Positions 1 through 52,603 of a stretch of DNA of 64,000 bases are shown piece after piece (within the stretch, counting starts at the first letter, position 1; the number at the start of each line of letters is the position of its first letter). The notes beneath the pieces were generated by a model. That model saw nothing but the letters and a program-made list of their open reading frames with translations. It was not told where the DNA came from and ran no database searches. The stretch is from assembly GCA_027484725.1 (NCBI GenBank), contig JAIXSK010000025.1, positions 1-64,000 on the forward strand, in the 5' to 3' direction. This DNA is from Flavobacterium sp. (GTDB lineage: Bacteria > Bacteroidota > Bacteroidia > Flavobacteriales > Flavobacteriaceae). The position numbers and the translations under genes are program-made.

Positions 1-2037
1 ACTGTTTTAGGTTCGGGCGGTTGTCCGAATGTAAGTGCAACGAGAATTGTTAACGTGACTGCACCAGTCGTGGCCGGAACTTTATCCGGAACACAAAATA
101 TTTGCATCGGTGATTCAGTGACTTTTGCTTCCACAGTTTTGGGTGGAAGTTGGACTTCATCTGATGTTACTGTGGCAACGATTAATGCTGCTACCGGAGC
201 AATTGTCGGCGTTGCTGCCGGAACCGCGACCATGACTTATACCGTACTCGGTTCTGGTGGTTGTCCAAATGTAACTGCAACACGCACCATAACGGTGACT
301 GCGCCAGTGGTGGCCGGAACTTTATCCGGAACACAAAATATTTGCATCGGAGATTCAGTGACTTTTGCTTCCACAGTTTTGGGTGGAAGTTGGACTTCAT
401 CTGATGTTACCGTGGCAACCATTAACGCTGCTACCGGAGCGATTGTCGGAGTTGCTGCCGGAACCGCGACCATGACTTATACCGTACTCGGTTCTGGCGG
501 TTGTCCCAATGCATCTGCAACGCGCACGATAACCGTAACTGCACCGCTGGTAGCCGGAACCTTGTCCGGAACACAAAATATTTGTATCGGAGATTCCGTG
601 ACTTTTGCCTCAACGGTTTTAGGCGGAAGTTGGACTTCATCGAATCCAGCAGTCGCTACAATCAATAGCTCGACCGGAGCCATTGTTGGAGTTGCTGCCG
701 GAAGTTCAACCATGACTTATAACGTGCTCGGTTCAGGCGGATGTCCGAATGTAACTGCAACACGCACGATAACCGTGACTGCGCCAGTCGTGGCCGGAAC
801 CTTATCCGGAACGCAAAATATCTGCATCGGTGATTCAGTGACTTTTGCTTCCACAGTTTTAGGCGGAACTTGGACTTCATCGAATCCAGCAGTCGCTACA
901 ATCAATAGCTCGACCGGAGCCATTGTCGGAGTTGCTGCCGGAACCGCCACCATGACCTATACCGTTTTGGGCTCGGGCGGATGTCCGAATGCTACTGTAA
1001 CGCGTATAGTGACGGTAAAACCAAGTCCGCATGTTTTGAATCAGAGCACTTACAATATTTGTACGGGTGACAACATCAATATTAATCTTACAGCTGATCT
1101 TCCCGGTACCACTTTTACATGGTTGGCCTCGCAAAATCATGTAACCGGAGCCGGCAACGGTTTAGGAAATACCATTGCAACAACACTTAATTTGACCGGA
1201 AATGGTTCGGGTTCTGTGGTCTACGGAGTGATTCCTATGGCCAATGGATGTGAAGGCAATCCGTATTATATTACCGTTCGCGTATGGCCACAACCGCGAC
1301 CGCAATTGAATGACGGGTTTGTTTGTCTGAACATTTTAACCAATAATGCGATCCAAACTCATTTATTGCAAACCGGATTAGATTCTGTAAACTATACTTT
1401 TGATTGGTATTTTAATGGTGCGCAAATCAGCGGAGCCAACAGTCATACGTATGAAGCCGACCAGGCGGGAACCTATTCAGTAATTGCGACCAACATACAA
1501 ACCGGCTGCGTATCTGATGAAGTTTTTGCTTCTGTAACCTCATCGTATGTGGCCAACAATTTTGTGGCCGAACCCAGCGATGCTTTTTCAGATGCGCCTT
1601 ATATCATTGTGCATACACCGGCGGGCACCGGACCATTTTTGTATCAACTCGATTTCGGGCCGTTTCAAAGCTCCAATATTTTTTATAATGTGTCGAGCGG
1701 TTTACACACCATTCGCGTAAAAGACGAAATGGGTTGTACTGATTTACTGGGTCAAGTTTGGATTTTGAATTATCCGAAATTCTTTACCCCGAACGACGAT
1801 ACCTATAACGACACATGGAACATTCCGGATTTGGCGAATCAGCCCGACGCGCACATTTATATTTTTGACCGCTACGCGAAATTCATCAAAGAAATCAGTC
1901 CACAGGGTGAAGGTTGGGACGGAAGTCACAATGGATATCCGCTGCCCTCAACCGACTATTGGTTCTCGGTAGATTATACCGATCCGAACACGTTTGTACG
2001 CAGAAATTTCAAAGCGCATTTTTCATTGAAACGATAA
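1..2037 (+). CDS. T9SS type B sorting domain-containing surface protein with tandem Ig-like (Big_2-like) repeats; 5' end outside window
   Basis: Frame +1 is open from base 1 (TVLGSGGCPNVSATRIVNVTAP...). Repeats of 80 aa, then a C-terminal FFTPNDDTYNDTWNI...IYIFDRYAKFIKEISPQGEGWDGSHNGYPLPSTDYWFSVDY...FKAHFSLKR gliding-motility/type B sorting signature. Confidence 0.9.
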   Translation, partial: TVLGSGGCPNVSATRIVNVTAPVVAGTLSGTQNICIGDSVTFASTVLGGSWTSSDVTVATINAATGAIVGVAAGTATMTYTVLGSGGCPNVTATRTITVTAPVVAGTLSGTQNICIGDSVTFASTVLGGSWTSSDVTVATINAATGAIVGVAAGTATMTYTVLGSGGCPNASATRTITVTAPLVAGTLSGTQNICIGDSVTFASTVLGGSWTSSNPAVATINSSTGAIVGVAAGSSTMTYNVLGSGGCPNVTATRTITVTAPVVAGTLSGTQNICIGDSVTFASTVLGGTWTSSNPAVATINSSTGAIVGVAAGTATMTYTVLGSGGCPNATVTRIVTVKPSPHVLNQSTYNICTGDNININLTADLPGTTFTWLASQNHVTGAGNGLGNTIATTLNLTGNGSGSVVYGVIPMANGCEGNPYYITVRVWPQPRPQLNDGFVCLNILTNNAIQTHLLQTGLDSVNYTFDWYFNGAQISGANSHTYEADQAGTYSVIATNIQTGCVSDEVFASVTSSYVANNFVAEPSDAFSDAPYIIVHTPAGTGPFLYQLDFGPFQSSNIFYNVSSGLHTIRVKDEMGCTDLLGQVWILNYPKFFTPNDDTYNDTWNIPDLANQPDAHIYIFDRYAKFIKEISPQGEGWDGSHNGYPLPSTDYWFSVDYTDPNTFVRRNFKAHFSLKR
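58..1017 (+). repeat. Four tandem 240-bp coding repeats (80 aa each)
   Basis: The motif act-gca/gcg-cca-gts-gtg-gcc-gga-acy-ttr-tcc-gga-ac recurs at about 58, 298, 538 and 778. Protein unit VVAGTLSGTQNICIGDSVTFASTVLGGSWTSS...TRTITVTAP. Confidence 0.95.
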
Positions 2038-7144: not shown

Positions 7145-8527
7145 TTAGATTTTTCCGTCTACTTTGTTGCGTTTGATGAATTGTCCGTAGCCTTTTGGAA
7201 TTTTACATTCGTTGTTGTCAATGGCGATTTGTCCGCGCAATAAAACCGTTTTGACTTTTCCGGTAAGTTGCCATCCTTCATAACCGCTGTAATCAACATT
7301 CATATGATGTGTTGCGGCTGAAAGGGTGTGCTTTTCATTCGGATCAATCAGGATGATATCCGCATCGCTGCCCACTGCTATGGTTCCTTTTTTGGGAAAC
7401 ATACCAAAGATTTTGGCTGCATTGGTTGCGGCTACTTCTACGTATTTGTTCAAGGTGATTTTTCCTTTGCTGACGCCTTCACTAAAGAGCAATTCCATAC
7501 GGTTTTCAATAGCCGGATGGCCGTTCGGAATTTTTGAGAAATCATCTTTACCCATGAGTTTTTGTTCCCACATAAACGGACAGTGATCGGTAGCCACTAC
7601 ATTGACCATACCTTGATTCAAGCCGGCCCAGAGCGCTTCTTGGTCTTTTTTCTCACGCAATGGCGGCGACATGACCCATTTGGCACCTTCAAAATTTTGT
7701 TCGTATAAACTGGCATCTAAAATCAGATACTGTATGCAGGTTTCAACAAAAACATGTTGGTTGCGACGCGTGGCAAAACGCACGGCATTGAGCGCGCCTT
7801 CACAGGTAAGATGCACGATATAACCCGGGCAACCTGTATAATCGGCCATATCGGCAAAGCGGCTGCTGGCCTCAGCTTCGGTAACTTCAGGTTGTGATAA
7901 ATAATGATACAGCGGCGACAATTTGCCTTCAGCTTTGTGTTTGGCAATCAGATAATCAATCATATCGCCGTTGGTGGCGTGCACGTTGATAAGCCCTCCG
8001 TGTTTTTTGACTTCTTGCATGAGCCCCACCATCTGACGATCGTCAATCATGAGCGCACCTTTATAAGCCATAAACGTTTTAAAAGACGTGATGCCTTCGT
8101 TTTCAATAAAGTGTTGGATTTCTTTTTTGGTTTCGTCGTTAAAGTCGGTCACAGCCATGTGAAAGCTGTAATCGCCCACGGCATTGTTATCGCTGCGTCC
8201 TTTCCATTCTTGTAAAGCAGCATTCAAACTTTTCCCTTGGGTTTGCAAAATGAAATCAATTACCGTGGTGGTTCCGCCAAAAAGGGCCGCGCGCGTTCCG
8301 GTCTCGTAGTTATCACTTGAATAAGTGCCCATAAACGGCATATCCAGATGCACATGCGGATCGATTCCGCCAGGCATCACGAGTTTTCCGGTAGCATCAA
8401 TGACTGTATCGGCCGTTACTTTTAAGTTTTTGCCAATGGCCGAGACGGTTTCGCCTTCTATAAAAACATCCGCCATATAATCGTCGGTGGCGGTGATGAC
8501 TCTTCCGTTTTTAATTAAAATACTCAT
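7145..8527 (-). CDS. hydA: Dihydropyrimidinase (D-hydantoinase family)
   Basis: MPGGIDPHVHLDMPFMGT, TSFKTFMAYKGALMIDD, INVHATNGDMIDYLI, NVVATDHCPF motifs. Confidence 0.92.
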   Translation of the reverse strand: MSILIKNGRVITATDDYMADVFIEGETVSAIGKNLKVTADTVIDATGKLVMPGGIDPHVHLDMPFMGTYSSDNYETGTRAALFGGTTTVIDFILQTQGKSLNAALQEWKGRSDNNAVGDYSFHMAVTDFNDETKKEIQHFIENEGITSFKTFMAYKGALMIDDRQMVGLMQEVKKHGGLINVHATNGDMIDYLIAKHKAEGKLSPLYHYLSQPEVTEAEASSRFADMADYTGCPGYIVHLTCEGALNAVRFATRRNQHVFVETCIQYLILDASLYEQNFEGAKWVMSPPLREKKDQEALWAGLNQGMVNVVATDHCPFMWEQKLMGKDDFSKIPNGHPAIENRMELLFSEGVSKGKITLNKYVEVAATNAAKIFGMFPKKGTIAVGSDADIILIDPNEKHTLSAATHHMNVDYSGYEGWQLTGKVKTVLLRGQIAIDNNECKIPKGYGQFIKRNKVDGKI

Positions 8528-10037: not shown

Positions 10038-10050
10038 AGGTGTTGCTTTT

Positions 10051-11400
10051 TTATTCCATCGCGGCGTCGGCTATTTTAAGCGCCTCGCTGATGATGGCCA
10101 AACCTTCGTCAATTTGTTCTTTGGTGATGTTGAGCGGCGGTGCGATAAAAATATAACCCCAACGCACAAAAGTGTACATGCCCAATTCTCTGATTTTGGC
10201 CGCCACTTGATTCGAAACTTTTAAATCGTCTCCGGCAGCGTTGTATGGCGCCATGAGTTCGCCGGTGGTTTTGTTTTTTAATACGTCTAAACAGCCCAAT
10301 AATCCGGTGTTTCTGAACGTGCCCATGCTGGGGTGTTGGCTGCGCATTTGGTTGATGCGCATTTCCATATACGCGCCCATTTCGCGGGCGTTTTCAATGA
10401 GTTGATCACTTTCGTAGATGTTGATTACGGCCAGAGCTGCCGCCAAGGATACCGGATGCGCATTATAAGTAAGTCCAATCATCATAGGCGTAGCATCATA
10501 TTTAGCGGCAATTTTGTCGGATACCATCAAGCAACCGAGCGGTAAATACGAAGCCGTTAAACCTTTGGCCATACAAACCATATCGGGAATGATGTCGTGG
10601 TTTTCAAAACCAAACCATTTTCCGGTGCGGCCAAATCCGCTCATAACCTCATCGGCGATGAACAAAATACCGTATTTTTCGCAAAGCGCTTTAACGCCTT
10701 TGAGGTAACCTTTTGGGTAATGCAAACAGCCCGAAGAACCGCTTTCGCCTTCAAAAATAAAGGCGGCAATGTTGGTTTTGCCTTCGAGGTGAATAATGCG
10801 CTCAACGTATTCTAAACTCAACGAAAGCTTAGTAGCGTCGTCAAGGTTTTTCATACCGTAGAAATAATACGGATCATCTAGATGGACTACGTTGGGCATT
10901 TGCTGCGCATCGTTGGCGAGTTTGCGCGGGTCACCGCCCACCGTCATACCGCCAATGGAACCGCCATGAAAGGCGCGATAACGACCGATGATTTTGTGAC
11001 GACCGGTGTATAAACGAGCCAATTTAATGGCGTTGTCAATAGACGAAGTTCCGCATAAGGTGAAAAACGCTTTGTTCAGATCGCCCGGACAAATTTCGGC
11101 GAGTTTGCGCGATAATTTGGCGCGTACTTCAGTAGTGCAGCTGGGCGTAACAAAACTGACTTTGTTCATTTGTTCGACTACGGCATCGGTAACGCGTTGG
11201 TCGCCATGACCGATGTTGACCGACATGAGGCCGGATGAAAAATCGATGATGCGTTTTCCGTCGCAGTCATATAAATAGACACCTTCGGCACGATCAATCG
11301 CTATAGGGTTGACCGCGGCTTGGGCAGACCAAGAAAACAAACTGAATTGTTTGCTGTCGTTGATGATTTGTTCTTTTGATAAGGTTTCTTCTGTTGTCAT
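10051..11400 (-). CDS. PLP-dependent class III aminotransferase (candidate beta-alanine:pyruvate/2-oxoglutarate transaminase)
   Basis: HGGSIGGMTVGGD, LFIADEVMSGFGRTGKWFGFENHDIIPDMVCMAKGLTASYLPLG; pathway context. Confidence 0.88.
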   Translation of the reverse strand: MTTEETLSKEQIINDSKQFSLFSWSAQAAVNPIAIDRAEGVYLYDCDGKRIIDFSSGLMSVNIGHGDQRVTDAVVEQMNKVSFVTPSCTTEVRAKLSRKLAEICPGDLNKAFFTLCGTSSIDNAIKLARLYTGRHKIIGRYRAFHGGSIGGMTVGGDPRKLANDAQQMPNVVHLDDPYYFYGMKNLDDATKLSLSLEYVERIIHLEGKTNIAAFIFEGESGSSGCLHYPKGYLKGVKALCEKYGILFIADEVMSGFGRTGKWFGFENHDIIPDMVCMAKGLTASYLPLGCLMVSDKIAAKYDATPMMIGLTYNAHPVSLAAALAVINIYESDQLIENAREMGAYMEMRINQMRSQHPSMGTFRNTGLLGCLDVLKNKTTGELMAPYNAAGDDLKVSNQVAAKIRELGMYTFVRWGYIFIAPPLNITKEQIDEGLAIISEALKIADAAME

Positions 11401-43757: not shown

Positions 43758-45635
43758 TTAATCTTGATGTTTGACCAAGTACAGCGGAATAGAAATCTCA
43801 TGTCTCACTTTATCGACGGTTGTACCCAAAATCAAATCTTTAAAGGTATGATGCCCATGGGTTCCCATGATGAGCAAATCATACGAACCTTGATTGATGA
43901 TGTTTGCAATGGCTTTGCCGGGCTTGCCAAATCCAAGTTTGGTCTGAACAGAAAAGCCTTTACCCGATAACATCTCATAATATTCATGCAAAAGTTTTTC
44001 ATCGACTGTGGTCTCGTGGTCAATAATATCTTTGCCGTACATCATCGCGCCCACGGTTTCTACAATATGAATGAGTGTATATTCTGCGTCTTTTCCGCCC
44101 AAATCAAAAGCGTGTTGCAAGGCTCTTGAATCGGCCTGAGAAAAATCAACCGTAACGGCAATTTGCTTGCGCACATAATTTTTGTGGGTATCAATGGTCA
44201 AGGATAAATGATGCGGCGAATGGTTGAATGTGTTTTGTTTTGCTTTCGAGAAAAACGGTTTGAAAACGATGTACAGTAGCAAAACCAAAAAACCTATAGC
44301 GACCGGAACTACGGTAAAAACAAGTAAAGTCGGGTTTTGAGAAGTCATGAGCCAATTCGAGATTTCGTCATACACCAATCGAACGTTGAGTGAAACTATA
44401 ATCAAAGCTACTACCCACGAAGCAATTTGCGTGATTTTGCCAATTTGAAAACCTTTCATTTTGACCGGATCGCTCACAAAATGAATCAACGGAATAATCG
44501 CAAAACCCAACTGCAAACTCAAAATTACTTGGCTTAAAATGAGTAATTTTCCGGTCACGGCCTCGCCAAAAACCACAATGGCAATTACCGCGGGGACAAT
44601 GGCAATCAAACGCGTGATGATGCGGCGCACCCAGGGCTGAATGCGCAAATTCAAATAACCTTCCATGATGATTTGCCCGGCGAGCGTTCCGGTAATGGTA
44701 GAGCTTTGTCCGGCAGCAATTAAGGCTACCGCGAATAAAATGGGTGCCCATTCTGAACCCAACATCGGAGCCAATAATTTATGCGCATCTTGAATTTCAC
44801 TCACTTCATAAAGTCCGTTGTTGTAAAAAGCGGCCGCTGCCAAAATTAAAATCGCAGCGTTCACAAAAAAGGCCAAGTTGAGCGCGATGGCACTGTCAAT
44901 AAAATTGTATTTAAGTGCTTGACGAATGCCCTGCGGATTGCGATTGAATTTACGGGTTTGCACCAGCGATGAATGCAAGTACAAATTGTGCGGCATCACC
45001 GTAGCACCAATGATTCCAATAGCAATGTACAAAGCTGCTTCATTGGGCAAACTCGGAATCAAGCCCGAAGCCATTTTCCCAAGTTCGGGCTGTGCAAATA
45101 TCATTTCGGCGATGAATGAAAGGCCAATGATCATGATGAGCGCAATGATAAAAGCTTCCATTTTTCGGATGCCTTTATGGATCAAGAACAACAGTAAAAA
45201 AGTGTCTAAAACGGTAATAATCACACCTTGAATCAGCGGTAAACCAAAGAGCAAATTAATCCCAATGGCCATACCGAGCACTTCGGCCAAATCACAGGCC
45301 GCAATGGCAATCTCAGCCAAAAAATACAGAATATAATTGATAAACGGAGCATACGTCTCGCGAGAAGCTTGTGCCAAATCGCGCTGGGTAACAATGCCCA
45401 AACGCGCACTGAGGCTTTGCAGCAAAAGCGCCATAACATTGCTCATGAGCAACACCCAAATAAGTGTATATCCAAACTGACTCCCACCCGCAATATCGGT
45501 GGCCCAATTGCCCGGATCCATATAACCGACGCTGATCATATAAGCCGGGCCTAAAAAAGCAAGAATGCGCCGGAATCCGGTTCTTTTCTGATCAGTCATT
45601 ACTGACTCATTGACCTCTTCTAATGACTTACTCAT
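43758..45635 (-). CDS. Nramp family divalent metal transporter fused to a universal stress protein (USP) domain
   Basis: GPAYMISVGYMDPGNWATDIAGGSQFGY, IGATVMPHNLYLHSSLVQTR (Nramp); C-terminal IAVTVDFSQADSRALQHAFDL...YDLLIMGTHGHHTFKDLILGTTVDKVRHEISIPLYLVK (USP). Confidence 0.93.
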   Translation of the reverse strand: MSKSLEEVNESVMTDQKRTGFRRILAFLGPAYMISVGYMDPGNWATDIAGGSQFGYTLIWVLLMSNVMALLLQSLSARLGIVTQRDLAQASRETYAPFINYILYFLAEIAIAACDLAEVLGMAIGINLLFGLPLIQGVIITVLDTFLLLFLIHKGIRKMEAFIIALIMIIGLSFIAEMIFAQPELGKMASGLIPSLPNEAALYIAIGIIGATVMPHNLYLHSSLVQTRKFNRNPQGIRQALKYNFIDSAIALNLAFFVNAAILILAAAAFYNNGLYEVSEIQDAHKLLAPMLGSEWAPILFAVALIAAGQSSTITGTLAGQIIMEGYLNLRIQPWVRRIITRLIAIVPAVIAIVVFGEAVTGKLLILSQVILSLQLGFAIIPLIHFVSDPVKMKGFQIGKITQIASWVVALIIVSLNVRLVYDEISNWLMTSQNPTLLVFTVVPVAIGFLVLLLYIVFKPFFSKAKQNTFNHSPHHLSLTIDTHKNYVRKQIAVTVDFSQADSRALQHAFDLGGKDAEYTLIHIVETVGAMMYGKDIIDHETTVDEKLLHEYYEMLSGKGFSVQTKLGFGKPGKAIANIINQGSYDLLIMGTHGHHTFKDLILGTTVDKVRHEISIPLYLVKHQD

Positions 45636-47680: not shown

Positions 47681-48091
47681 ATGTATCCAGAAGAAATGGT
47701 CAACCCGATGCGTGCTGAACTTACAGACGCCGGTTTTCAGAATTTATATAGCGCTGCCGATGTTGAAAACGCTTTGAAACAAGCCGGAACTGCTTTGGTG
47801 GTTGTGAACTCTGTTTGCGGATGTGCCGCGCGTAATGCACGCCCCGGTGCGAAAATGAGTTTGAGCGGAGCTAAAAAACCAGACCAATTGATTACGGTTT
47901 TTGCCGGCGTGGATAGAGAAGCGGTTGATGCTGCGCGTCAGCATATGTTTCCGTTTCCGCCTTCGTCCCCTTGTATGGCTTTGTTTAAAGACGGAGAGCT
48001 CGTTCATATGTTAGAGCGCCATCATATTGAAGGCCGTCCGGCTGAGATGATTGCCGAAAACCTCATGGACGCTTACGCAGAATTCTGCTAA
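47681..48091 (+). CDS. BrxA/BrxB family bacilliredoxin
   Basis: [24 protein letters not shown] (CGC motif), [28 protein letters not shown]. Confidence 0.93.
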
Positions 48092-48111: not shown

Positions 48112-48141
48112 CAAACCCCAGCTGAGTGTTGGGGTTTTTTT
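48112..48141 (+). terminator. Rho-independent-type terminator
   Basis: AACCCCAgctgagtGTTGGGGTTTTTTT. Confidence 0.75.
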
Positions 48142-48237: not shown

Positions 48238-48327
48238 AAAACCTTTGGCTCATTGAAATAAAAATGTACCTTTGCCGGCGAATTCCGCCAATGTGAATTC
48301 AGATATCTCACTTAATACGTTTATAGC

Positions 48328-49680
48328 ATGCAACTGTACAACACATTAAGCGCAGAAGAAAGAGCCCGACTCATTGACGAGGCTGGGCAACAACGCCTCA
48401 CGTTGTCTTTTTATGCGTATGCCAAAATTGAAGATCCCAAAAAATTTCGCGACGATTTATTTGTAGCTTGGAATGCGCTCGATGCGCTGGGCCGAATTTA
48501 TGTAGCCCATGAAGGCATTAATGCGCAAATGAGCGTTCCGGCCGACCATTTTGAGGCTTTTCGCGCAACCTTAGAAGTTTATGATTTTATGCGCGGCATT
48601 CGTTTGAATGTGGCGGTGGAGCAAGACGATCATTCGTTTTTGAAGCTCACCATCAAAGTGCGTCACAAAATTGTGGCCGACGGTCTGAGCGATGAAACTT
48701 TTGACGTAACCAACAAAGGTGTGCATTTGAACGCCCGAGAATTCAATGCGATTTTAGACGACCCCAATACGATTGTGGTTGATTTTAGAAATCACTACGA
48801 AAGCGAAGTCGGGCATTTTAAAGGCGCGATTACCCCGGATGTTGAAACCTTTCGCGAGTCATTGCCCATCATCAACGAGCAACTCAAAGATTATAAAGAA
48901 AATAAAAACCTAGTGATGTATTGCACGGGTGGCATTCGTTGTGAAAAAGCCAGTGCCTATTACAAACACCAAGGTTTTCAGAAGGTATATCAGCTCGAAG
49001 GCGGCATTATCAATTATGCCAAGCAAATCAAAGAAGAAGGTTTAGAGAGCAAATTTATCGGGAAGAATTTTGTGTTTGACCACCGTTTGGGCGAGCGCAT
49101 TACCGATGATATCATTGCACAATGCCACCAATGCGGCGCGCCTTGTGACAACCATACCAACTGCGCCAATGAAGCTTGTCATTTGTTGTTTATTCAATGC
49201 GACAGTTGTATGGCCACTATGGAAAACTGCTGTTCAACTGAATGTCAAGAGTGGATTCATTTGCCTATGGACGAGCAAATTCGCCGCAGAAAAGGTTTGC
49301 AAGTGGGCAATAAAATTTTTAGAAAAGGAAAGTCTGAAAATTTAAAATTCAAACATTCGGGTGCACTTTCGGCTACTCCACTGGCCAAAGCGCCGAGCGA
49401 TATTCGTCAGAAAATCAAAGTCAAAAAAACCTTGTTGGGCAAAGTCGAGCATTATTTTGTCAAGGCCTGCGTTGGTTTGATCGAGCTGCAAAACGGTTCG
49501 TTGCAAATAGGCGATACCATTGTTATTTCGGGGCCAACCACCGGAGAACAAACCCTGACTTTATCAAAATTTAAAGTCAACGGACAAGAAAACACCTCAG
49601 CACAAACCGGAGATAAAGTAACTTTTGAAGTGCCTTTTAGAGTGCGTTTGTCTGATAAAGTTTATAAAATCATAGGCTAA
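48328..49680 (+). CDS. trhO: Rhodanese-related tRNA uridine(34) hydroxylase TrhO-like (YceA family) with an extra C-terminal U32_C-like domain
   Basis: YVAHEGINAQMSV, DFRNHYESEVGHFKGAITPD, MYCTGGIRCEKASAYYKHQGF, Cys-rich CHQCGAPCDNHTNCANEACHLLFIQCDSCMATMENCCSTECQEW; C-terminus resembles that of the next gene. Confidence 0.9.
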   Translation: MQLYNTLSAEERARLIDEAGQQRLTLSFYAYAKIEDPKKFRDDLFVAWNALDALGRIYVAHEGINAQMSVPADHFEAFRATLEVYDFMRGIRLNVAVEQDDHSFLKLTIKVRHKIVADGLSDETFDVTNKGVHLNAREFNAILDDPNTIVVDFRNHYESEVGHFKGAITPDVETFRESLPIINEQLKDYKENKNLVMYCTGGIRCEKASAYYKHQGFQKVYQLEGGIINYAKQIKEEGLESKFIGKNFVFDHRLGERITDDIIAQCHQCGAPCDNHTNCANEACHLLFIQCDSCMATMENCCSTECQEWIHLPMDEQIRRRKGLQVGNKIFRKGKSENLKFKHSGALSATPLAKAPSDIRQKIKVKKTLLGKVEHYFVKACVGLIELQNGSLQIGDTIVISGPTTGEQTLTLSKFKVNGQENTSAQTGDKVTFEVPFRVRLSDKVYKIIG

Positions 49681-50921
49681 TGACAAGCTCAGGAAAAATT
49701 GAACTCATGGCGCCCGCCGGGAACTTTGAGTCGTTACAAGCCGCCTTAGATAACGGCTGTGATTCGGTGTATTTTGGGGTAGAACAACTCAATATGCGCG
49801 CTCGAGCAACGGTTAACTTTACCTTAGAAGATTTGCCCGAGATTGCCCGTCGTTGCAACGAGAAAAACGTGCGCACTTACCTTACGCTCAACACGATTAT
49901 TTACGACCACGATTTATCCATTGTCAAAACGCTTTTGACCCAAGCTAAAGAAGCCGGTATTACTGCGGTGATTGCTTCAGACCAAGCCGTGATTGCCTCG
50001 GCGCGTAGTTTGGGCATCGAAGTGCACATTTCAACCCAGCTCAACGTCACCAATGTCGAGACGGTCAGGTTTTATAGTTTGTTTGCCGATACGATGGTTT
50101 TATCGCGCGAATTGAGTTTGCGTCAAGTAAAGAAAATCACCGAAACTATTGAAAAAGAACAAATCAAAGGCCCGTCAGGCAACTTGGTGGAAATTGAAAT
50201 TTTTGGTCACGGCGCCTTGTGCATGGCGGTTTCAGGAAAGTGTTACCTGAGTCTGCATGCGCATAATTCTTCGGCCAATCGCGGAGCTTGCAAGCAAAAT
50301 TGTCGAAAAAAATACACGGTCATTGATCAAGAAAGCGGTTTTGAAATTGAAATCGACAACGAATATATGATGTCGCCCAAAGATTTGTGTACGATTGATT
50401 TTTTAGATCAAATCATTGATGCCGGCGTTCAGGTTTTGAAAATTGAAGGACGCGGACGCGCTGCCGATTATGTAGCCGCTGTAACACGGACGTATCGCGA
50501 AGCTATTGATGCGATTTACGACCAAACCTACACCCAAGAGCGCATCAAGTCTTGGATGGAAACACTTTCAACGGTATACAACCGTGGTTTTTGGAGCGGT
50601 TATTATTTGGGTCAAAAACTCGGCGAATGGAGCGACAATTCGGGTTCAAACGCCACGCAGAAAAAAGTATATGTGGGCAAAGGCATGCATTACTTTGCCA
50701 AATCGGGTATTGCCGAATTTAAAATTGAAGCGTACGACATCAAAAAAGGCGACCGAATGCTCATTACCGGGCCTACTACCGGCGCACAAGAATTTGAGCT
50801 CGACGACTTTTTGGTCAATGATGCCGAGGCCGACAAAGCAGGCAAAGGCGATAGTTGTACGTTTAAAGTTCCGTTTCGCATTCGCTTGTCGGACAAACTC
50901 TATAAAATGGTTGAAGCCTGA
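49680..50921 (+). CDS. trhP: U32 family peptidase-like protein, TrhP/YegQ family
   Basis: IELMAPAGNFESLQAALDNGCDSVYFGVEQLNMRA, GHGALCMAVSGKCYLS...NRGACKQNCRKKY; C-terminal GDRMLITGPTTGAQEFELDDF...VPFRIRLSDKLYKMV. 1-nt stop/start overlap with trhO. Confidence 0.9.
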   Translation: MTSSGKIELMAPAGNFESLQAALDNGCDSVYFGVEQLNMRARATVNFTLEDLPEIARRCNEKNVRTYLTLNTIIYDHDLSIVKTLLTQAKEAGITAVIASDQAVIASARSLGIEVHISTQLNVTNVETVRFYSLFADTMVLSRELSLRQVKKITETIEKEQIKGPSGNLVEIEIFGHGALCMAVSGKCYLSLHAHNSSANRGACKQNCRKKYTVIDQESGFEIEIDNEYMMSPKDLCTIDFLDQIIDAGVQVLKIEGRGRAADYVAAVTRTYREAIDAIYDQTYTQERIKSWMETLSTVYNRGFWSGYYLGQKLGEWSDNSGSNATQKKVYVGKGMHYFAKSGIAEFKIEAYDIKKGDRMLITGPTTGAQEFELDDFLVNDAEADKAGKGDSCTFKVPFRIRLSDKLYKMVEA

Positions 50922-51162: not shown

Positions 51163-51198
51163 AAAAAAAGTCTGAAACCATGAGAATCAGACTTTTTT
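51163..51198 (+). terminator. Rho-independent-type terminator
   Basis: AAAAAAAGTCTGAaaccatgagaaTCAGACTTTTTTT. Confidence 0.85.
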
Positions 51199-51313
51199 TA
51201 TGCCTTCTTATCCATTTTTATTTGGCCTGCGCATTACCGAAAAAATACTATCTTTACCCTCGAAACGTTTGTGAAAAGTAGTGGCACGGCCACGATCAAT
51301 ATATATTCAATTT

Positions 51314-52603
51314 ATGGCATGTAACAGTTGTTCCACCGCTGACGGCTCTGCGCCGAAAGGGTGTAAAAATAATGGGACTTGCGGCACCGATAGCTGCAAC
51401 AAACTAACGGTTTTTGATTGGCTTTCAAACATGAGTTTGCCGGGTGGTCAAGAACCTTTTGATTGTGTTGAAGTTCGTTTTAAAAACGGACGCAAAGACT
51501 TCTACCGAAACACCGAAAAACTCACTCTGAGCATTGGCGACATTGTGGCCACCGAAGCTTCGCCGGGGCATGACATTGGTATTGTTACCCTGACCGGGGA
51601 ATTGGTGCGTGTGCAAATGAAGAAAAAAGGCGTTCCTCCCGAAAGCCCTGAAATCAGCAAGATTTACCGCAAAGCTTCGCAAAAAGACATTGATGTTTGG
51701 TCAGCCGCGCGCGATCGAGAAGAACCCATGAAAGTGCGCGCCCGAGAATTGGCCATTGCACACAAACTCGAGATGAAAATTTCAGACATTGAATTTCAAG
51801 GCGACGCGTCAAAAGCTACTTTTTATTATACCGCCAATGACCGCGTTGACTTTAGAATGTTGATTAAAGATTTTGCCAAAGAATTCAGCATCCGCATCGA
51901 GATGAAACAAGTTGGTTTTAGACAAGAAGCTTCTCGTTTGGGCGGCATTGGTTCATGCGGACGCGAATTGTGTTGCTCAACTTGGCTCACCGATTTTAGA
52001 AGTGTCAATACTTCAGCAGCGCGTTATCAGCAGTTGTCTCTTAACCCGCAAAAATTGGCCGGACAATGCGGAAAACTCAAATGTTGTTTGAACTACGAAC
52101 TTGATACATATCTGGATGCATTACAAGATTTTCCGGATTTCGACACCAAATTACACACCGAAAAAGGCGATGCAACTTGCCAAAAACTAGATATTTTCAA
52201 AGGCCTGATGTGGTTTTCATATACTGATAGCCCGGCGGTTTGGCATATGCTCAACATTGAACAAGTCAAAGAAATCATAGCCGAAAACAAGCAGAAAAAG
52301 AAAGTGGCTTCGCTGGAAGATTTTGTAGTTGAAGTCATTTCAGAACCTACCCAAGATTTCACCAACGCCATGGGTCAAGAAAGTTTGACGCGTTTTGACA
52401 AACCCAACCGCAAACGCAAACCCAACAAAAAGAAAAAGCCAGCCGGTGAAGCGCGAAGCTCTGAAGCTCAGCCACAAGTGCAAGCCAATGATAATGCAGC
52501 TAGACAACCTGCAAGCCCAAATCAAAACGGAGGCGGAAATCGCCCTAAAAACAAACACCACAAACACAAAAAGAATCCGAACAGAAATGAGCCTAAAAAC
52601 TAG
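51314..52603 (+). CDS. ricT: PSP1 domain protein, RicT/YaaT-like, with Cys-rich N-terminus and basic low-complexity C-terminus
   Basis: FDCVEVRFKNGRKDFYRNTEKL, RIEMKQVGFRQEASRLGGIGSCGRELCCSTWLTDF, LAGQCGKLKCCLNYE. Confidence 0.92.
   Translation: MACNSCSTADGSAPKGCKNNGTCGTDSCNKLTVFDWLSNMSLPGGQEPFDCVEVRFKNGRKDFYRNTEKLTLSIGDIVATEASPGHDIGIVTLTGELVRVQMKKKGVPPESPEISKIYRKASQKDIDVWSAARDREEPMKVRARELAIAHKLEMKISDIEFQGDASKATFYYTANDRVDFRMLIKDFAKEFSIRIEMKQVGFRQEASRLGGIGSCGRELCCSTWLTDFRSVNTSAARYQQLSLNPQKLAGQCGKLKCCLNYELDTYLDALQDFPDFDTKLHTEKGDATCQKLDIFKGLMWFSYTDSPAVWHMLNIEQVKEIIAENKQKKKVASLEDFVVEVISEPTQDFTNAMGQESLTRFDKPNRKRKPNKKKKPAGEARSSEAQPQVQANDNAARQPASPNQNGGGNRPKNKHHKHKKNPNRNEPKN

Follow-up and report, generated by a model that had tools for sequence, protein, structure and literature searches.

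Hydroxylation of tRNA U34 in E. coli is carried out by TrhO (YceA), an O2-dependent enzyme, and an alternative route leads to the same modification (PMC6599085). TrhP, found mainly in gamma- and beta-proteobacteria (PMC6599085), belongs to the U32 family. Its defining activity is prephenate-dependent formation of ho5U34. E. coli TrhP (YegQ) and B. subtilis TrhP1 and TrhP2 (YrrN and YrrO) are composed of a U32 domain and a C-terminal domain, with conserved cysteines and an LSRELSL motif. Literature searches found no assigned role for the domain at the C-terminus of U32 RNA hydroxylases. The window, a stretch of 64,000 nucleotides from a Flavobacterium sp. genome, included a three-gene operon made up of trhO, a TrhP-like U32 gene and a ferredoxin gene (Table 1). 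The preliminary description had placed the first two reading frames correctly and had missed the third. Consecutive genes overlapped at their stop and start codons (TAATG between trhO and the U32 gene, TGATG between the U32 gene and the ferredoxin gene). Since the DNA was continuous across the TAATG overlap and the same architecture recurred in many independent genomes, the arrangement is not an assembly artefact. Flavobacterium johnsoniae strain CI04 has the operon too. Upstream of trhO was a BrxA/BrxB-type bacilliredoxin (47681-48091, +), with a terminator-like site (48113-48137) between the two genes. The operon terminator was followed by a RicT-like gene (51281-52603, +) with a long C-terminal tail rich in K, N, P and Q. 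Elsewhere in the window, an Nramp-type metal transporter (43758-45635, -) had a C-terminal part that resembled, by eye, a universal-stress-protein domain (GTHGHHTF motif).

Table 1. Features of the trhO-U32-ferredoxin operon in the window.
Feature	Position	Strand	Basis or remark
Promoter-like site, Bacteroidota type (TTTGG, 18 nt, TACCTTTG)	48244-48274	+	Read from sequence; a match to the general consensus is not proof of a promoter
trhO, 450 aa	48328-49680	+	ORF and domain models
TrhO domains	UPF0176_N, residues 25-115; rhodanese, 136-231; Rhodanese_C, 245-307		Domain search
TrhO active loop CTGGIR	residues 199-204		Within rhodanese domain
Linker from TrhO core to extension, about residues 336-365	49333-49422	+	Variable in alignment, low pLDDT
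TrhO extension, a C-terminal beta-barrel apparently captured, residues 366-450	49423-49677	+	Alignment, model and fold match
U32-family gene, TrhP-like, 413 aa	49680-50921	+	ORF and domain models
Conserved Cys of U32 protein	residues 181, 188, 204, 208
U32 C-terminal beta-barrel, residues 328-411, homologous to TrhO extension	50661-50912	+
Single-cluster [4Fe-4S] ferredoxin, 76 aa	50921-51151	+
Intrinsic terminator, AGTCTGA / TCAGACT, 11-nt loop, then T run	51169-51199	+	Closes operon; read from sequence; loop exceeds the length permitted by the terminator scan

The TrhO protein exceeded the cut-off of the NCBI TrhO model (261 against 170), possessed all three expected domains (UPF0176_N, Rhodanese and Rhodanese_C) and was 97% identical to TrhO of Flavobacterium sp. 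CYK-55. Its core was 55% identical to E. coli TrhO, with the same domains and the same active loop, CTGGIR, which conforms to the CXGGXR pattern and was invariant in 31 TrhO sequences. K110 and R112 were conserved and, by their spacing, resembled K112 and R114 of E. coli TrhO (PMC6599085). Going by its sequence, the trhO product is predicted to be an O2-dependent U34 hydroxylase. Each of 15 genomes tested had a full-length PF01596 methyltransferase, and a convincing CmoB was found in none of them, so mo5U is a likelier product than cmo5U, though the NCBI models do not establish the methyltransferase as TrmR.

The U32 protein contained a Peptidase_U32 domain with the conserved cysteines, shared the LSRELSL motif with the known TrhP proteins, was 33% identical to E. 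coli YegQ and was the only U32-family protein found in its genome by the Pfam model. Unlike the E. coli and B. subtilis TrhP proteins, it fell below the cut-off of the NCBI TrhP equivalog model (197 against 534) and was paired with a ferredoxin. The label TrhP-like in the preliminary description holds for domain and cysteines but not at the level of the equivalog. Across the genomes sampled, the U32 gene was commoner where TrhO was lacking (81 of 131) than where it was present (52 of 161), these genomes not being independent of one another. Outside the two families Flavobacteriaceae and Weeksellaceae, the class sample had it in 4/4 TrhO-lacking genomes vs 4/33. The excess is compatible with a second path to the modification, like that of E. 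coli, but does not demonstrate one. By homology, the window's U32 protein may hydroxylate U34 by an O2-independent route; no biochemistry on its subfamily was found in the literature. A further U32 protein, longer at 620-630 aa and with about 35% identity over the first 335 residues, was common in the genus (G021, G084, G245, G257 and others) and absent from the window's genome.

The preliminary description had noticed that the two enzymes end in the same domain, and the resemblance is far beyond chance. Residues 366-449 of TrhO and 328-411 of the U32 protein gave an ungapped alignment of 84 amino acids (45% identity, 81 bits, E=4e-21), and 20 residues were invariant across both types of C-terminal domain (CTD). 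The preliminary assignment of the domain to Peptidase_U32_C was upheld by fold and not by the Pfam model (PF16325), which scored below its gathering cut-off on both proteins and had no match in their genome. Among 37 relatives, eight matched Peptidase_U32_C weakly (best E 0.0016) and nine matched GTP_EFTU_D2, also weakly (5.9e-5). A profile of the CTD gave only chance-level matches to PDB sequences, including a weak one to EF-Tu, and was not significantly similar to the profile of E. coli YegQ. The AlphaFold (AF2) model of the TrhO extension had a pLDDT of 83, rising to about 90 across the barrel, and Foldseek placed the U32 C-terminal domains 4he5 and 4he6 at the top of its PDB matches (E 3e-5), followed by IF2, eIF5B and EF-Tu. 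On this model and its top fold matches the extension is identified as the kind of barrel that ends U32 proteins, belonging to the domain-II type of translation factors. The model of full-length TrhO (pLDDT 57) was too uncertain to place the barrel relative to the active site.

Not every TrhO carries the extension. We surveyed 296 Bacteroidota genomes from the phylum and 296 from the order, in which the coded groups g1 and f2 are probably Flavobacterium and Weeksellaceae (Chryseobacterium), judging from the named loci. TrhO proteins spanning the query to its end were found in Flavobacterium (26/26), in one genome of an allied genus, g142, and in all 39 Weeksellaceae genomes with TrhO, and nowhere else sampled. 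The reading frame was open through the match in all 66. In contrast, the 22 TrhO proteins from other genera of Flavobacterium's family ended near residue 345. No plasmid record covered 80% of the extended trhO query, and literature searches found no report of a TrhO extension. The cores of extended TrhO formed one clade (100/100), as did the TrhO CTDs against the U32 CTDs (99/95), and the extension arose once on TrhO.

We favour, with moderate confidence, a reading in which trhO of this operon captured a U32 barrel that serves it as a self-sufficient docking module, with repeated losses of the U32-ferredoxin pair. Several observations bear on the independence of the barrel from the U32 enzyme. 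The short U32 gene was present in 24 of the 66 genomes with extended TrhO and absent from 42. Some of the 42 carried the longer U32 protein, and in several genomes, including G142 and most Weeksellaceae, the sole U32 match was the TrhO CTD itself. Along the TrhO tree, U32 presence changed 18 times (read from the flanks at named loci) and the extension was never lost. Traces of the missing genes were found at two loci. L100 had an intact extended trhO beside a stop-interrupted, decayed ferredoxin behind a transposase-like ORF (by eye), a region (7369-8125) that is probably the former place of the U32-ferredoxin pair. In L052 (Flavobacterium undicola), a 27-aa remnant of a U32 C-terminus (10046-10126) lay downstream of trhO at a distance of about 3 kb. 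The CTD was under purifying selection whether or not U32 was present, with a dN/dS of 0.103 when both species compared had the gene and 0.099 when neither had it; the pairs overlap and these values are descriptive.

The extension might instead be a passive appendage to fold or stability, without a specific partner, that drift fixed following an accidental fusion. It evolved faster than the TrhO core (dN/dS about 0.10 against 0.03) and sat behind a variable linker, as such an appendage would. However, its retention with an open frame and under purifying selection through all the changes in neighbour presence, together with the residues invariant across both CTD types, makes this explanation unlikely.

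The preliminary description had proposed a joint system for coordinated U34 hydroxylation. In such a system the shared domain would couple the two enzymes, either because they dock to each other or because both use one common partner. The single operon with its overlapping codons, the conserved residues common to both CTDs and the constancy of linkage agree with such coupling: wherever trhO and U32 occurred together with an extended TrhO, they were on the same strand within about 1.7 kb (24/24 genomes). The same linkage was nevertheless seen in the 7/7 genomes of the family having both genes and an unextended TrhO. Retention and equal constraint of the extension where U32 is missing argue further against coupling, as do the differing lineages of the two CTDs in Weeksellaceae, where the TrhO CTD was Flavobacterium-like and the U32 CTD native. 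Within its clade the extension was ubiquitous, on standalone TrhO in genomes without the U32 gene as well, which is the pattern that the preliminary description had named as refuting its proposal; it was not ubiquitous on TrhO generally. We consider the joint system quite improbable.

Transfer of the domain between neighbouring genes, also suggested in the preliminary description, was supported by the data. Because the trhO-U32 operon exists where TrhO has no extension, linkage probably preceded capture. The best CTD tree placed the TrhO CTDs beside Flavobacterium U32 (94/76), but a position outside all Flavobacteriaceae and Weeksellaceae U32 CTDs was not rejected (AU p=0.47), and with only 88 alignment columns the placement was not significant. 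The donor would be a U32 gene, probably the operon neighbour. Independent acquisition of both domains from a third source, which the AU test permits, is very doubtful, as U32 genes were the only other carriers found in the sampled genomes, the best tree nests the TrhO CTDs beside one of them, and the presumed donor adjoins trhO. Weeksellaceae TrhO nested inside Flavobacterium TrhO and its exclusion was rejected (AU p=0.006), which indicates that the whole trhO gene moved between the two groups. Weeksellaceae U32 did not fall inside Flavobacterium U32. No TrhO CTD grouped with the U32 CTD of its own genome, and continuing gene conversion between the domains was therefore rejected.

Under the capture reading, trhO in the ancestor of Flavobacterium and the allied genus would have acquired the barrel-encoding end of a U32 gene of this kind, probably the one beside it in the operon. 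The extended gene would then have spread between Flavobacterium and Weeksellaceae, and the U32-ferredoxin pair would have been dropped many times. The barrel, resembling domain II of EF-Tu and IF2, most likely serves as an independent docking module, helping TrhO to hold tRNA or a translation-factor-like partner, and it would work without the U32 protein. Its net charge of only about +2 gives no direct sign that the barrel binds RNA.

The window's genome contained a single ferredoxin of this type. Within the two families this ferredoxin was found in 20/20 U32-positive and 0/35 U32-negative genomes, in each of the 20 downstream of U32 within about 300 bases. Outside them it adjoined U32 in 9 of 11 genomes with the closer U32 form, and it was undetected in seven phylum members that are more distant and have a more divergent U32. 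Literature searches found no report of a U32-ferredoxin pair. The ferredoxin is probably a dedicated electron donor, most likely supplying electrons to the U32 [4Fe-4S] enzyme. The pair, whose members come and go as one in these families, offers a candidate donor for the presumably oxygen-independent enzyme.

More broadly, and tentatively, the U32 barrel may be a portable tRNA-docking module of two chemically unrelated U34 hydroxylases, the Bacteroidota U32 hydroxylase may use a dedicated adjacent ferredoxin, and transfer of the barrel may have let cells drop the anaerobic enzyme and keep substrate docking. The natural transplant of a U32 domain to an unrelated enzyme that acts at the same step would provide a clean test of the domain's role. 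Compared with known systems, E. coli TrhO matches the window protein only up to residue 335, beyond which the latter carries its U32-type barrel. The C-terminal domain of the Geobacillus U32 protein (4he5, 4he6) has the same fold (rmsd 1.3, target-normalised TM-score 0.86, 20% identity), but there the barrel sits on a U32 protein, whereas in the window a rhodanese-type enzyme carries it as well. Domain II of EF-Tu, IF2 and eIF5B has a related barrel fold with low sequence identity to the TrhO extension, which, unlike these factors, is not accompanied by a GTPase.
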